A stretch of DNA of 64,000 nucleotides from Benincasa hispida. Taxonomy: Eukaryota; Streptophyta; Magnoliopsida; Cucurbitales; Cucurbitaceae. The notes below the pieces were generated by a model. That model did no database searches and was not told where the DNA came from. It saw only the letters and a list, made by a program, of their open reading frames with translations. Of the stretch, positions 9,917 to 64,000 are shown in pieces; position 1 is the stretch's first letter; every line of letters begins with the position of its first letter. The stretch covers positions 53,759,123 to 53,823,122 of the forward strand of contig NC_052351.1 of NCBI RefSeq assembly GCF_009727055.1. The letters run 5' to 3'. The translations under genes were made by a program, and so were the position numbers.

Positions 9917-10429
9917 ATGAATTTCATGTTGGATTGTTAGTTTTATGCATTTTCCATTGGTAATGTTGATTAAGTTTTGGTTTCGGTAAAGAATTTAAAG
10001 GTTTTTTTTATTAAAAAAAAAACAGTCAGCTGACTATAGCAACGTTGTAAATCTCACCGACGGTAGGTTGGAAATCTCTACCGTCATTGTTTTCTTTGGC
10101 AATATGTATTCTTGCAACCCGTGTTTTTGTCGGTGGTATTTGGCATACCCATCACCGATTATGAATGATGTGCTAGTGATGTATTAAAGTGATTTTTTTG
10201 TTGATTATTTTGATTGAACGTGGTTTCCTAAAGTTTTTTTTTTTAGTTCTATTATTGTCAAAATTGAGGATGTTCAGTTCAACATTCTTGACAAAAGTCC
10301 ACCAATATGATGAAATCCATTGGGAAAAGTTAAAGACCAATTGAAGGAGTTGGGTCTCTTGCCACTGCAAGTTTTGCCTATCAAGACTTTCAGTCAATGA
10401 TCGTTGGTATTATTTAGGGACGCGTTTCT
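9917..10429 (+). other. Leader of copia element A, before the nested insertion
   Basis: Non-coding sequence between primer site and gag, with A- and T-runs and an accGACGGtag-like motif near 10060. The minus-strand frame 10173-10397 has no recognisable motif. The leader resumes after the nested repeat at about 12239. Confidence 0.45.
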
Positions 10430-11547: not shown

Positions 11548-11666
11548 ATTTATAGAACTTGGACATTGATAGCTGTAATGATGGAGGTATGGCTCACTGC
11601 TGCTTTTGTCGCGATATGGGCGTTCTCACATCGCCTTATCTTGTTGATACTCCCAAGGTATGCGTT
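11548..11666. repeat. Left copy of a 119-bp duplication flanking adapter sequence
   Basis: Matches 11697-11815 over its whole length at a constant offset of 149 bases, with only two mismatches near 11621-11625. The copies are separated only by adapter sequence. The likely cause is assembly of two reads of the same locus on either side of a mate-pair junction. Confidence 0.85.
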
Positions 11667-11696
11667 TATACACATCTAGATGTGTATAAGAGACAG
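11666..11696. other. Tn5/Nextera mosaic-end junction (library adapter, not genomic)
   Basis: Positions 11678-11696 are exactly AGATGTGTATAAGAGACAG, the 19-bp Tn5 mosaic end used in Nextera libraries. The preceding TTATACACATCT (11666-11677) is the end of its reverse complement, CTGTCTCTTATACACATCT. Two mosaic ends head to head form the circularisation junction of Nextera mate-pair libraries. The + frame across it reads THLDVYKRQ, the usual translation of this adapter. I infer untrimmed adapter in the assembly. Confidence 0.95.
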
Positions 11697-11815
11697 ATTT
11701 ATAGAACTTGGACATTGATAGCTGTAATGATGGAGGTATGGCTCACTGCTGCTTTTGTCGCGATATGGGCATTGTCACATCGCCTTATCTTGTTGATACT
11801 CCCAAGGTATGCGTT
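11697..11815. repeat. Right copy of the 119-bp duplication
   Basis: Partner of 11548-11666. After 11815 the sequence continues into the rest of repeat X, so this is probably the genuine copy and the left one plus adapter the inserted excess, or the reverse. Confidence 0.85.
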
Positions 11816-18060: not shown

Positions 18061-18061
18061 N
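18061..18061. other. Ambiguous base N at a likely misjoin
   Basis: The only N in the window. Left of it, minus-strand RNase H is being read. Right of it the sequence is abruptly LTR. A single N between two partial copies of the same tail suggests a closed assembly gap rather than a true allele. Confidence 0.7.
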
Positions 18062-18273: not shown

Positions 18274-21200
18274 TTTGCTTTTACGAATTCCATGAAACCA
18301 AGCTTTCATTTAAGTAAAACGCCATTCCACTTGTGCTTTTCCTCCAATTGAGATCACCGACTGTCAGAGTAGCCGAATATATCGGCTTCTCGGGGACCTT
18401 TCACATAAGTGAGCCCAAAGTGAACTGTCCCTCTCAAATACCTAAGTATTTGCTTGACCGCCTTATGATGCATGGCCGTAGGCCTTTCCATATACCTGCT
18501 CGCCATCCCAACAGCATATGGGAGATCTGGTCTTGTGTTCAGCAAGTATCTAAGACAACCAACGATGCTTATGTACTCCGTAGCATCAATTGGTGCTCCT
18601 TCCATGTCTTTGTGAAGTTGTGCCTTGGGTACGGGTACTTCGTGGCATTGCAGTCAGCCATTCCAAACTGGGACAAGATTCTTTTGGCATAAGTTGGTTG
18701 TTTGAGTAGGATTCAACCCTTCTGTTGTTCCACTTCAATCCCTAAGTAGTAAGAGAGAAGACCCAAATCGCTCATTTCAAATTCTGCCATCATTTGTTGC
18801 TTAAACTTGTTGACTTTTTCAGTGCTACTTCCCGTTACAATGAGATCGTCAACATACACTCCAACAAGAACACTTTCTTCTCCTTCTCTTTTTGTGTAGA
18901 CTGCTTACTCTTGAGTGCATTTTCCAAAGCCAAGCTCTTTGAGACTCCTATTAAGTCGAATGTTCCAAGCTCGTGGAGCTTGTCTTAATCCGTAGAGAGC
19001 CTTCGACAACCTATACACCTTGTGTTTCTGGTTTGGAACCTCAAATCCCTACGGTTGAGTAACATATACTTCCTCTTCCAATTCCCCGTTGAGAAACGCC
19101 GACTTCACATCTAGGTGGTGTACCTCCTAACTTCGGTTTGCAGCAAATGCAAGAATGACTCAAACGGTGTAAAGTCTTGCAACCGGTGTAAAAACTTCTT
19201 CAAAGTCGATGCTTTGTCTTTGTACATAGCCTTTAGCAACCAATCTTGCTTTGTGCTTGACAACTTCTCCATTAGAGTTTTTCTTCAATTTGAACACCCA
19301 TTTTAGACCAATGGGTTTGTGTCCCGATGGAAGCTCGGTTAAACTCCATGTGTTGTTCTTCTCAATGGATTTCAGCTCGTTCTCCATTGTTTCGTACCAG
19401 CGGGCCTCGGTCACAGCTTCTTAGTAGCAAGTCGATTTATCAGACACCACCATCATCACCTCATTTTCCTATTCTTTACTGCCTACAACTTCCTCTGTGT
19501 TGGCGTAGATGTCAGCGAGAGATCTTAGACGGTCTGGTATGTTTGTCGTTGGAGTAGATAGACTGCTCTCTCCAATTTCGGGTATCTCGGCTACTTATGG
19601 TGTGGCATTTTCGACCCCGATTTCTGCATCCTCCATATTATCGGCCTCATCGGAATAAAATTGGTCCATTATCTGAAACTTCGGAATCTCCTTGTCATCA
19701 TTAACGCCTTCGTTCTAAGCCCATTCAAGATTTTCTTAAAAAATGACATCTCTACTAATTTGTAGTTTTTTACGGCTCGAGTCATGTAAGCGATGAGCTT
19801 TGCATCCTTTTTCGATACCAAAATATACCATCGGCGAGCTTCGGTCGTCGAGTTTCTTGAGGTGAGGGGTTGTGTTTTTTACATATGCCACACAACCAAA
19901 CACCCTAAAGTGTGCAAGGTGTGGCTTTCTCCCCATCCAAGCTTCAAATGGTGTGCGTTCTCCAAGGGCCTTCGTTGGAAGACGGTTTAACACATAAACC
20001 GCGTGTCTCACCGCCTCTCCCCAAAACCTTGCTAGCACGTGCATGCTTTTGAGGTGTGATCTCATCATCGCCATTACAATGCGGTTACGACGCTCTACGA
20101 CGCCATTCTGTTGCGGTGAATATGGAGCAGTGAGGTGTCGCTTGATTTCTTTATTTTCGCAAAATTGAGTGAACTCCGCAGATAAGAACTCGCCACCTTG
20201 ATCCATCCGGAGCATTCTGATCTTGTACTCCGTCTTGTTCTCCATCAAGAGTTTGAATTTCTTGAATGCTTCGAATGCATCACTTTTTACCTCCAACATG
20301 TACAGCCACATCCATCTTATGGAATCTTCAACGATCAGCAGAAAATACTTGTTGCTAGCGAGAGTACACGGTGAAATCGGTCTGCAAATATCGACATGGA
20401 GGAGTTCTAGCGGCTTCTCCGCTCTATAGGTTGATTGGCGCAGGAACGATAACCTCGCTTGTTTGGTAATCATGCATGCTTCGCATAACTTGTTCAGTTG
20501 AGTCACTGGTGGTACTTCAACTGCCAATTTCTTCTCGCCCATGAGCAAAGTCATGAAAATTGACATGGCCAAGTCTCGCGTGCCACAACCATGCTGGATC
20601 TTCTAGGCTCATCAGAAGGCAGACTTTGCTTGAACGTCTTCAAGGTTATCTTGTACAAGCGATTTTGTGTTCACTTTACCGACATCAAAAGCTTCCTGCT
20701 CCTATCAGACACTTTCATGGCAGCTCCCGCTATTTGCACCTTGTTCCCATCTTCTGTCATTTTCCTGAGGCTTATGATTTTGTTACGTAGCTTTGGAATG
20801 TAGTACACCTCTTGGAGAGTCTGCTGATCACCGTTTTTGCATCGAACACGAACGTTCCTTTTCCCATGATCTGAATGGTTGATCCATCGTCGAACTTCAC
20901 CCTCCCGGTGACGCTTTCATCCAATTCTTGGAACTTCTCGCGATGGCCAGTCGTGGTTGATAGCACGGTTGTCAAGATACCAAACGTCATTATTTTTTCC
21001 ATTCTTGTCGTTGCGATACATCTCCGGCAACAACCGCTCTTTGCTGAGTAGTACGGCAACCTCCTGATCACGTCTAGTGTGTGTCCCCTCCTGGGACATG
21101 GCCATCATCAAAGCCGGTTCTTCATCGGCGGCACAAGTTAGATGAGCTTCGTCATCACAACCTTTTCCGCGGCACTCCGACGCGTAATGTCTCATCTTGT

Positions 21201-29317: not shown

Positions 29318-31060
29318 TATTTTATAATGTTTTTAAAAGATGTATATTTTCTATGTTAATTTCCCCAAAATAGTGTTGATTATTTGCTTTAAATGCTAAT
29401 TTTGTAGGTTAAACGGTCTCTGAGGCATTTAAGAGTCATTACAAGAAAATCGAGCAAAAAAGATAAAAAAAAATGACTAAGAAAATCAACAAATTGAAAA
29501 GAATCGAGTAATTATCGAAATGCCATCGAGTATCATCAAGTAAAAGGCTATTGAGCATCGAGTATTTTATATTTTTTACCATCAAGTAATGCATAGAGTA
29601 AATGTCAGTGAGTATCATCGAGTTATCAACCATCAAGTTAGGGTTGCCAAGTAATCAAGCATCGAGTCATCGAGTACTATCGAATTTCTTCTTATTCATT
29701 TTTCATCGAGTAAAAGCCATCAAGTAAATTCCATCGTGTATCGAGCATCAAGTAAGGATCATGGAGCATAGAGGATTGAGTTGAAGATGGAATGCTCGCT
29801 TTTTGCTGCAAAAACTCGATGCATTGCAACGTTCCTCACAACGTTGCAATGCTCCGGATTTTGACGCGATTCATCCCCCGCACCTTGCGCAACCAAGGGT
29901 TGACACAATGTTGCAACGTTAGCCCAACACTTCTTGACTTTTCTAATGTTGCAACGTTAGCCCAACACTTCTTGACTTTTCTATGATTTAGCATTTCAAC
30001 AATCGCCTTGCCATCATGACTCTATGCTGCTGGTATAAATTTTGATTCAGTTTTCCAGCAAAAGAAAGAAGAGAAGAAAAACCCAATTTTTTTAGAGAGA
30101 GACTTCGAATTTACAAAGCTATACTTAAAATTTTTGAGAGATTCAATCAATTTGTATTCAATCCTTGTATCAAATATGCAACTATCAATGGGTTGCTTGA
30201 AGAATTTCATCATCCATGCGTAGGTAATCCTTTTTTTTTTGGGGAATTATGTAGATTGAAATTTTCTTGATACTTTTCCTTGAATTTTTTTTTCATGTAA
30301 TTACTTTCTTTTGAATGTTCTTGCTGATATTTAGAATGTAATTGATTATGTTTGATTTGCCGACTCAAGATTAATAATTTTTTATGCAAAAATTACATGG
30401 TTCTATAACAAAATTGTAATTATGGTTGTAAGAATTAGTAGTCTTGATAGAAAATGTGGACTTCTTTTCATCTTTTCTTTAAAGAATCTATTAATTTAGA
30501 ACATTCATGCAATCAATCTTGAATTTTCAGCCTTTTGATTCAAGATTGGAATACTTGAAAAAAACTCATTAGTTTAATGCAATTTAAGATTAATTGTGAA
30601 ATGTCTTTAGAAAGCAATTAAGACCTAGATTAGGGTTAATTGCCAAATGAGATAATTAGGGCATTAGGAATTTATTCTTTATGAACTATTGAACAATCTA
30701 ATTGCATGATTCTTTGTTAAGTCAATGATAGAATTGCCTAGTTTACATAAAATGCCCAAGATTCATTTCATTTCAATTAAATCTTATCTCATAATCTCTC
30801 TTATTTCTCTCATCAATAAATTTTCTAGATCAATTCTTGTCTTTTTCAATTAGTTTCTAGTTCTTAAAACAAACAACCCCCCGTTCAATCTGTTGCATTT
30901 TGGAATTCAAGTAGTCTATTTTAGACTAATTAATAGAGGTTCTCTTGGGATCGACCTCTTACTCCACTATTACTATGTGTTAGTTCTAGTTGTAGTTAGA
31001 GTATTATAAATTTCATTTGTTTTGGGTAAGATAGAATAACGACATCTATTTCACACCAAA
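29318..31060 (+). mobile_element. Gypsy-type LTR, probably Tat/Athila-like
   Basis: Follows a purine tract and contains ATCGAGTA-type repeats (29505-29775), a GCAACGTTGCAATGC section with a 38-bp tandem duplication (29907-29982), and near its right end GGGATCGACCTCTTACTCC, a phrase typical of gypsy LTRs of this group. No polyprotein is attached. Ends are approximate; the lineage is inferred from these phrases only. Confidence 0.45.
29907..29982. repeat. Two tandem 38-bp units
   Basis: AATGTTGCAACGTTAGCCCA and the 18 bases after it occur twice, at 29907 and 29945, without mismatch. The plus frame 29792-29986 owes its repeated HFLTF to this. Confidence 0.8.
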
Positions 31061-52909: not shown

Positions 52910-54493
52910 ATAGGCTTCCTTCTAATTAATTTTGGTAAAGGGAATTTTGTGTTCTTGATTGAGAGAGCAACGTAAAGAGGAGAAGAGGAAGATCAAGATC
53001 AAGGAGAGAAAATGCATGTGAACAACTTCACGTGAAAACCAAAAATTGGTTTTTCTGTACCACCAAACTCCTCTACCAAAAATATGAGATATATGAGAGA
53101 GGGAGAATGCAAAGGAGTTATTAATTTTTGAATTCAAAATTCAAAAATCAATTTTTAATTTAATTATATTAACTAATTAATATAGTTAAAATATATATTA
53201 TATCTCATACAATATATATCCTATAATTTATTATATTACATATAATATAACCTATAATTTATTACATCACATATAATATAACCTATAGTTTATTATTCTC
53301 TCATATAACCATAGTATTAATATAAATCATATCCGTAATAATTTTAACCTATAGTTTTTATATGAATCATATTCATATAATTAGTATTTGAATCATATTC
53401 AAATATTTATCTCTCTCATTAAACTACATAATGTATCAATATACATTATACTTTATGATGTGTCAACATACATTATATTAATTGTATCTCACACAATTAG
53501 TTCCCTTTAATTAAATCCAAATTAATTTGATTCTCATTAGTCCTTATTGAGCAAACAAGGGGACCTTATGGACCTGTAGATTGAAACTCCAATGATACGA
53601 GATTAATTGATTAAACCCTTTAATCAAATTAATCAACATTCATAGGTCATTTATGTCCATTGGATACAACCAAATAGTGCTTGACCTTTTATAAATTACT
53701 TAAGTACAGCTGAGTCAAAATTATCGTTTTATCATTGTAGTTATGTCTAGCTCCCTAAGTACCACTAATCCCTAAAATGAACAATTAATCATAGTCCAAC
53801 TATAACTAGACCCCTCTCTGGCTCGTGAGAGGGTGAGGGCTTTTATTGTTCAAGACGCGGAATCAACCATTAAAGGAACAATTCATCTACTTACCCTAAC
53901 AAAGGGAATGAGTGAATTTCATATTGTGTAGTATAGTTCCTAACTCCCCACTCAGACGAATCCCAAAAATGGTAGGTATATTGAGTTGGCGAATCTAGTC
54001 ACTCTCACCCATGCAAATCAAAGAACTGCCTTCATAGGCAGGAGTTCACAACTCATTTAAGATTAGATCAAGTCACGTATAGTCATCTTAGTGAAATGTA
54101 AGTCTTTTCTAGTAACAGTGTTAGAAAGAGAGACTAATCATTTCGTGGTCTAGTCTCATACAAACTCTTGGTATAGAATACTCCTACTCACATGTCTCCA
54201 CATGAATTATCAGGATCAAATCATTTGTAAAACTTTACAACAATCCGTAGCGTTACCAGGATAAGGTACCCAACATTTTCAATCTACTATAGACCGTTCA
54301 AGTTATTACTTAAACATGATTCACCTGTATGTCTCCACATACATGGTTAAGTTACATAAGTTAACCGAGGATCTTAGTTTATTAGATTGAGTTAATGCAT
54401 ATATAAAATAAAAATTATTTTATTAACAACAGTTTGTTTGCACAAATTTACAAACTATGAGAATATAAGAGACTTAGGACACCAATATCAACA
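52910..54493 (-). mobile_element. Minus-strand copia LTR
   Basis: On the minus strand starts TGTTGATATTGGTGTCC at 54493, right after a purine tract (AGGACAAGTGGGAGAT, 54494-54509). It carries the family landmarks reversed (GGTCCATAAGGTCCCC, GGGTGAGAGTGACTAG, TAACGCTACGGATTG). A hairpin at 53125-53147 (10-bp stem) lies where other copies have theirs. The 3' end of the LTR is not clear, so the left boundary is approximate. Small frames here are not genes. Confidence 0.65.
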
Positions 54494-57024: not shown

Positions 57025-57095
57025 CCTACACAATTGCCTACCTCATCGTGTAGCGCCACTCACTTACTAGACGATCGCATACCCAATGTGTAGTG
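57025..57095. repeat. Left copy of a ~71-bp duplication flanking adapter sequence
   Basis: Same as 57134-57205 except one substitution and a 1-2 base difference near the end (CCCAATGTG versus CCCAAACGTG). Separated from its partner only by adapter. Confidence 0.85.
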
Positions 57096-57096
57096 T

Positions 57097-57133
57097 CTGT
57101 CTCTTATACACATCTAGATGTGTATAAGAGACA
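57097..57133. other. Second Tn5/Nextera mosaic-end junction (library adapter, not genomic)
   Basis: 57097-57115 is exactly CTGTCTCTTATACACATCT and 57116-57133 is the first 18 bases of AGATGTGTATAAGAGACAG: two Tn5 mosaic ends head to head, lacking only the last G. This is the mate-pair circularisation junction and cannot be plant sequence. Confidence 0.97.
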
Positions 57134-57205
57134 CCTACACAATTGCCTACCTCATCGTGTAGCACCACTCACTTACTAGACGATCGCATACCCAAACGTG
57201 TAGTG
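57134..57205. repeat. Right copy of the ~71-bp duplication
   Basis: Partner of 57025-57095; the natural sequence continues after it. Confidence 0.85.
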
Positions 57206-61403: not shown

Positions 61404-64000
61404 CTAGACAAGATGCTGCATGTCCCACAGACCCAGACATTCCAGGTGACCCTTAAACACTTTAGCCGTGAGAGCCTTTGTAAAAGGATCAGTAACCTTG
61501 TGCTCCGACATGATCTTCGTGACTATCACATCACTACAATGTACAATCTCCCTGATTAAGTGGTATTTCCATTCTATATGCTTGCCTCGACGATGAATCT
61601 GAGGTTCCTTCGAATTTGCCATAGCCCTACTGTTATCACAATAGAGAATGATAGGTAAATCCATATTTGGAACAACTTCCAAATCTGAAAGGAATTTCCT
61701 TAGCCAAACAGCATCCTTAGCTGCTTCACAAACGGCTACGTATTTGGCTTCCATAGTGGAGTTCGCGATGCATCCTTACTCAATGTTTCACCACACTACA
61801 ACCCTTCCATTCAGAGTGAACACTGACCCCAATGTCGATTTACGAGAATTTCTATTGGTCTGAAAGTCAGAGTCTGTGTATCATGTAAGGATCAGATCCT
61901 TATCTCCATACACGAGCATGTAGTTCCTCGTTCTCCAAAGATACTTGAGGATCGTCTTGACCGCCCTCCAGTGATAAAATCTTGGATTGGACTGATACTG
62001 ACTGACAATCCCTATTGCATAGCAAATGTCAGGTTTGGTACACAACATTGCATACATTAAGCTTCCTACAGCTAAAGCATAGAGAATCTATCTCATCTTC
62101 TCAACCTCTTGAAGTGTCTTAGGACATTAATCCTTAGACCAAACAATTCTATGCCTTAAGGGTAACAAACTCTTCTTGGAATCCTGCATCATGTACTTGA
62201 TCAACATTTGATCGATGTGTGATGCTTGAGACAGGGCTAACCTCTCGTTCTTATGATCTGGATCCCTAGAACGTATTGTACCTCACCCAAATATTTCATT
62301 TCAAACTGGCCAGCTAGCCATTTCTTAATGTTAGTCAAATATCCTACATCATTTCAATGAGTAGGATATCATCCACATACAGGACCAGGAAAGCTACTGA
62401 GCTATTGATGATCTTCTTGTAAACACAAAGCTTATAAATGTTCTGATCAAAGCCAAATGACTTGATCGCAGTATCAAATCTAATGTTCCACGATCGAGAC
62501 ACTTGTTTCAGCCCATAAATGGACCTATTAAGCTTGTAAACTTTTTGCTCTTGATCTGGAACTACGAACCCCTCTGGTTGAGTCATATAGATGGTCTCCT
62601 CAAGATTACCATTAAGAAAGGCAGTCTTGACGTTCATTTGCCATATCTCATAATCATAAAATGTGGCTATGGACAGGAGTATCCTAATAGACTTGAGCAT
62701 GACAACAGGTGAGAATGTTTCCTCATAGTCAACTCCCTCGACCTGGGTATAACCCTTTACCATGAGTCGAGCCTTAAAGGTTTGTACCTTTCCATCTACA
62801 CCTCTCTTTCTTTTATAGATCCACTTACACCAAATATATCTTACCTCATCAAACGGATCAACAAGCTCCCAGACATTATTGAAGTATAGAGACTCCATTT
62901 CCTGGCTCATGGCTTTAATCCATTCATCTTTGTCAACATCCTCCATTGCTTTCTTAAAAGACAATGGATCCTCGACCCCATCATTAGAAATGATGTTATG
63001 GGCTTCAGTCAAACCCATGTAGCGATCCGATGGCTTCATAACTCTCCCACTACGTCGAGGCAGTATCAACTCTTGAGCTGGTTGACTAGATGTACCGACC
63101 TCAATAACTATTTTTGATCTATCGGCCTGTTCAACAACTCTTGTTGAACCCTCAGTAGTCTCAATCTCACTAGAAATCTCACGTAAAACGAGTTTACTTC
63201 ATGGCTTATGATCCCAAACGTGGTCTTCTTTCAAGAAGATAGCATTTGTAGAAACAAACACTTTGTTCTCACTTGGATCATAGAAGAATCCACCCCTCGT
63301 TTCTTTGGGGTAGTCTATAAAATGGCAAACCCTCGAATACGGTTCCAACTTCTTCGGGTTAGTCACTAGCACATGTGCCCCAAATCCTGAAGTGGCGCTA
63401 CCTTTACGACCTCTTTACAACTCAAAAGGTGTTTTAAAAACACTTTTTGAGGGAAAATTGTTCAGGATATAGCATGCAGTCTCCACTGCAAAAACCCAAA
63501 ATGAGTCTGGAAGATGAGCATAACTCATCATAGATCGAACCATGTCCAACAAGGTTCTGTTTCTTCTTTCTGATACACCATTCTGCTGAGGTGTACCTGG
63601 GGCCGGGAGTTGGGACGTAATCCCATGTTTTATTATATAGTTCTGGAATTGGAGGTCCATATACTCTCCACCACGATCAGATAGTAGTGTTTTTATCTTC
63701 TTACCTAACAAGTTTTCAACTTCAGCCTTATACTCCTTGAACTTGTTAAGGACTTCAGACTTACGTTGCATGAGGTAGAGATACCCGTACCTTGAATAAT
63801 CATTTATGAAAGAGATGAAATATTCATGCCCACCTCGAGCCCTAACACTCATCGGACCACAGAGGTCAGAATGAACAAGCTCCAAGGCTTCCTTGGCTTT
63901 GTAACCTTTTCCAATAAAAGGTCGTTTGGTCATCTTGCCTTTGAGGCATGATTCAAACATTGGCAAGGAGTTTTCTTCTAAACTCTTTAGAAGTCCACTT
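61404..64000 (-). pseudogene. Gag-pol of minus-strand copia element O, cut by the window edge
   Basis: Best preserved copia here. From the right edge: the end of the pre-integrase zinc region, then integrase (63415-63966) with D, D and E motifs visible (LELVHSDLCGPM, LLSDRGGEYMD, NGVSERRNRT); a linker with LPRRSGRVMKP (about 63060); reverse transcriptase 62344-63069 (WCKWIYKRKRGVDGK; DVKTAFLNGNLEETIYM; YVDD kept at 62368-62379); a frameshift or short loss after LLIEMM; a decayed connection region (61760-62340); and RNase H 61404-61754 ending GLWDMQHLV. Stops between the blocks show it is inactive. Gag and 5' LTR, if present, lie beyond 64000. TNT1-94-like. Confidence 0.85.

Follow-up and report, generated by a model that had tools for sequence, protein, structure and literature searches.

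Positions 57025-57205 of the window, the whole 64,000-nucleotide stretch of DNA that was analysed, contained a short palindromic segment enclosed between two copies of a native repeat. This place is called site 2 below. The central segment, at 57097-57133, corresponded to 37 of the 38 bases of a junction made of two Tn5 mosaic ends placed head to head, in agreement with the initial annotation. We take these 38 letters to be the Nextera Mate Pair junction. The mosaic end that forms the first half of the mate-pair junction adapter was located on the minus strand at 57097-57115 and was exact (19/19), whereas the one on the plus strand at 57116-57134 matched at 18 of 19 positions, with C instead of G as its last base. 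This C, at position 57134, can also be read as the start of the right repeat copy. The left copy of the native segment extended over 57025-57096 on the plus strand and consisted of 71 bases (57025-57095) followed by one base, at 57096, which immediately preceded the adapter and had no counterpart in the right copy. The right copy, as obtained by aligning the two flanks, covered the 72 bases from 57134 to 57205 on the plus strand. The near-identical 71-72-bp copies announced at the outset were thus present, with 95.8% identity over 72 alignment columns. Judged from adapter-free relatives of the repeat, one of the two is almost certainly a false duplication.

A mosaic-end 19-mer with up to three mismatches is expected by chance 0.03 times per window, and the three matches found at this threshold were reached in none of 100 shuffles of the window. 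An abutting repeat comparable to that of site 2 was observed at 2 of 800 random control positions, which were taken from the window and from twenty 10-kb loci and lay clear of N and of mosaic ends. The surroundings of site 2 were formed by a degenerate native repeat with a period of approximately 41 bases. Over 62 bases the two copies were 98% alike, compared to 65-73% for the other listed units of about 41 bases. The left flank had at least 43 matches in the assembly, its own site and the right copy included, and is therefore a dispersed repeat. None of the four listed stop-to-stop frames of at least 80 amino acids between positions 54000 and 60000 ran across the site.

The other such place in the window, to which the word "again" in the initial annotation alluded, was found as described. 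This site 1 contained a truncated junction adapter at 11666-11696, with arms of 12 and 19 bases (the left arm being the one cut to 12), located between two 118-base copies on the plus strand at 11548-11665 and 11697-11814 that were 98.3% identical. A search of the window with a 15-base piece of the mosaic end, allowing up to three mismatches, revealed no third place.

The assembly comprised 912,946,352 bases in 1,791 contigs. The suspicion that the problem is widespread was confirmed by the total counts: the perfect 38-base junction occurred at 9,991 places in 912.9 Mb, and exact 19-base mosaic ends were found 10,764 and 10,766 times, or 21,530 in all, with no occurrence of the backwards control in either case. 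Arithmetic from these counts places 19,982 of the 21,530 exact mosaic ends in complete pairs. By hand arithmetic, the junctions with at least one exact arm number at most 11,539, which corresponds to about 0.8 per 64 kb, so that two junctions in the present window are unremarkable. The evidence for the whole assembly consists of total counts, and individual sites were sampled from the window and from the first 5 Mb of C1. One 20-mer of the TruSeq adapter had no exact match in the assembly, nor did a merged pattern for the Nextera sequencing tails in front of the mosaic end (the final 10 bases of each tail joined to the mosaic end). With these zero counts, ordinary Nextera or TruSeq read-through was rejected. 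The designation "Nextera junction" therefore holds in the sense of an internal mate-pair junction and fails in that of ordinary read-through. The TruSeq and Nextera-tail adapters were removed or never present, and the internal junction was left in. Among the sequences surrounding junctions, N runs marking remaining gaps were seen in 2 of 20 stretches of 10 kb and in none of 30 loci of 3 kb.

The bases next to the mosaic ends carried the signature of the transposase. The insertion preference of Tn5 is given as GNTYWRANC (PMC3046479). The nine bases following the 72 ends of 36 perfect junctions agreed with this target at 3.81 of the 7 informative positions on average, against 2.59 for random positions (sd 0.146, z 8.3; 10,000 draws from the same flanks). 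The test was based on perfect junctions with 300 bases on either side, the sites of the window being left out. At site 2 itself the agreement was 4/7 on the left and 2-3/7 on the right, which for a single site is not decisive alone. Because the nine flank bases match the Tn5 target preference, the flank ends were most likely made by tagmentation.

The probable native state was deduced from related sequences elsewhere in the assembly, used for site 2 as a stand-in for the same locus in independent data. Four relatives of site 2, from C2, C8, C11 and C5, were chosen from the upper part of the match list before their sequence was seen. All four carried the segment once and lacked a mosaic end. 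The best flank pieces of site 2 were 82-87% alike to them, with a displacement of -71 to -73; this value was taken from the pair of pieces with the best score, other offsets being obtained with weaker pairs inside the 41-base periodicity, which is native to the repeat. As the four relatives hold one copy and no adapter, the surplus at site 2 would amount to about 109 bases (approximately 37 + 72). For site 1, both relatives (in L049 and L043) showed a single copy in an adapter-free aligned span, with an overlap of 118. Site 1 is the same artefact as site 2.

The sample comprised 43 distinct sites, two in the window and 41 in the first 5 Mb of C1, where the fetched mosaic-end places run up to C1:4946430. 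Both arms were complete in 36 of them. Counting required the 20-base core of the junction with no more than one substitution, and each 120-base context contributed a single site; this criterion overlooked the single-arm places in L025 and L039 and reduced the four junctions of L032 to two. An abutting direct repeat, recognised by a best local flank alignment scoring at least 35 and no more than 30 bases away from the adapter on either side, was found at 18 of the 43 sites. Outside these 18 fell the repeat of L032 and the right flanks of L049 (1,080 bases upstream) and L050 (671 bases upstream). In L032 (C1:2856500-2866499) four junctions followed one another every 167 bases, and an exact 129-base repeat lay next to the second of them.

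At 26 of the 43 sites, both flanks could be aligned to a relative free of the adapter. The flanks overlapped at 17, native sequence was missing at eight, and one site showed a displacement of +1 base. A position between direct repeats, which the initial annotation suggested checking genome-wide, thus applies to part of the sample and is one of several outcomes. Displacements ranged from -671 to +727, or from -215 to +312 without L037 and L050, whose extreme values correspond to close junction pairs around a copied fragment. L049 was a third close pair, judged inside its own locus. The relatives kept had no mosaic ends in a span of at most 1,500 bases, and the median was taken per site; the set thus provides no count of absence. 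As the displacements come from repeat relatives, natural indels may contribute to them, and relatives in overlapping loci were counted twice. Of the eight positive displacements, three were recorded at the second junction of a close pair, and three are based on no more than two relatives. At three sites (the second junction of L005, L042, L045) the missing native sequence amounted to +292 to +312. The similarity of these losses of about 290-312 bases may be due to chance, to a common repeat family or to a gap size preferred by the pipeline. No inverted join was detected at the 43 sites when the right flank was searched for the reverse-complemented 20 bases at the end of the left flank.

We propose that site 2 is almost certainly an assembly artefact, consisting of an untrimmed Nextera-type mate-pair junction adapter and a falsely duplicated segment of about 72 bases. 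As the sequence and the target signature indicate, and in line with the published protocol, the Tn5 transposase cut the DNA and added a mosaic end to each fragment end, and circularisation then joined two mosaic ends head to head. Reads crossing the junction probably entered the assembly untrimmed. During contig or gap joining, a read extending from the left flank into the adapter would be merged, via the 38-base palindrome common to both, with a read that passes from the adapter to the right flank. Fragment ends overlapping in the genome would produce a direct repeat (the case of sites 1 and 2), fragment ends without genomic overlap would lead to the loss of native bases, and looping through one fragment would create tandem arrays. 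Such merging of reads through the adapter palindrome is the likely mechanism, and we prefer it because joins between two reads of the same neighbourhood yield overlap, loss and loops alike. The missing inverted joins count against it, as a palindromic bridge would permit them. The palindrome has probably acted as a systematic bridge for the assembler, with thousands of gaps in a published crop reference closed by adapter, and with false tandem duplications and small deletions arising in their thousands. A biological element is unnecessary to explain site 2.

A different route to the same kind of artefact would be the self-closure of a very short tagmented fragment, acting as sole cause, in which the length of the repeat is that of the fragment. 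The read would pass from the end of the fragment across the adapter to the beginning of that same fragment, and the assembler would have retained it entire. At many sites the adapter directly separates the end of the left copy from the start of the right one, as such a circle predicts, and the four junctions in 167-base steps resemble successive rounds of one circle. A self-closed fragment, however, yields overlap only and never loss, and the positive displacements at 8 of 26 sites disfavour it as the sole cause. Overlaps of 10, 18 and 19 bases (in L021, L015 and L013, respectively) are moreover too short for a circle, as DNA stiffness bars circles of 10-19 bases. The copies at site 2, L008 and L043 differ by 4-9%, which is unexpected for a single molecule unless one copy came from another repeat. 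We consider self-closure alone rather unlikely. It is also conceivable that sheared ends were ligated to an adapter ring with these same letters and that Tn5 tagmentation played no part, which would again be an artefact; a circularised 4-kb library with an identical 38-base ring adapter has been described (PMC7357533). The 9-base Tn5 target preference at the flank ends (z 8.3) is unexpected for sheared ends, and this explanation appears very improbable.

The 37 bases could finally be native, as the remnant of a mobile element whose flanking repeat is a target duplication. Some transposon footprints are palindromic with direct-repeat flanks, and the segment of site 2 is indeed palindromic and lies between direct repeats. 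The target duplication of Tn5, however, measures 9 bases, and the flank overlap varied here from more than 200 bases to missing sequence, with no fixed length. In addition, 9,991 copies were letter-perfect, the element was absent from all six relatives aligned to sites 1 and 2, and its letters are identical to those of the reagent (PMC7357533). A native element was rejected on the basis of the perfect copies, the adapter-free relatives and the variable flank displacement, and we assign it practically no probability.

The assembly analysed appears to be that of the wax gourd (Benincasa hispida) B227, for which a size of 912.95 Mb was reported (PMC9905507). The B227 genome was produced with five mate-pair libraries, ALLPATHS-LG and gap filling by PBJelly, and comprised 2,197 scaffolds, 397 of which were anchored to 12 chromosomes (PMC6856369). 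The 1,791 contigs counted here, against approximately 1,812 worked out from the scaffold figures of that paper, speak against the match. In the B227 paper, the main text contains neither "Nextera" nor "adapter" (the spelling "adaptor" lay outside the search), so that a Nextera kit is presumed for the B227 libraries. Among the matches listed for open-licence papers, as titles and abstract beginnings, there was no published report of a junction problem in B227.

The trimming of the mate-pair junction adapter was described as essential in the Skewer paper (PMC4074385), and NxTrim trimming was applied to the HuRef data (PMC6298255). The situation is similar to the problem of untrimmed Nextera mate-pair junctions addressed by NextClip, NxTrim and Skewer in that head-to-head mosaic ends lie between genomic ends. 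The difference is that the adapter was here not confined to reads but had been incorporated into finished pseudochromosomes, at roughly ten thousand places and accompanied by false duplications or losses. The importance of the junctions is practical rather than biological. With every perfect site, 38 foreign bases enter the assembly, often together with a false duplication, or native bases are dropped. If the assembly is that of B227, the sites should be masked before repeat counts, gene models, indel or duplication calls and k-mer work. According to the B227 paper, reads of 146 accessions were mapped to the B227 reference for variant calling.

The window contained no RNA family at the gathering threshold and no tRNA (ARAGORN, bacterial code). 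A lone N was present at position 18061 within otherwise continuous sequence. On the minus strand, stop-to-stop frames at 62344-63198 and 19736-20602 contained retrotransposon pieces, presumably Copia-like from their motifs. A perfect 38-base tandem duplication, in two copies, was observed at 29907-29983, where none of the window's three mosaic-end matches lies; it could be native or another assembly duplication.
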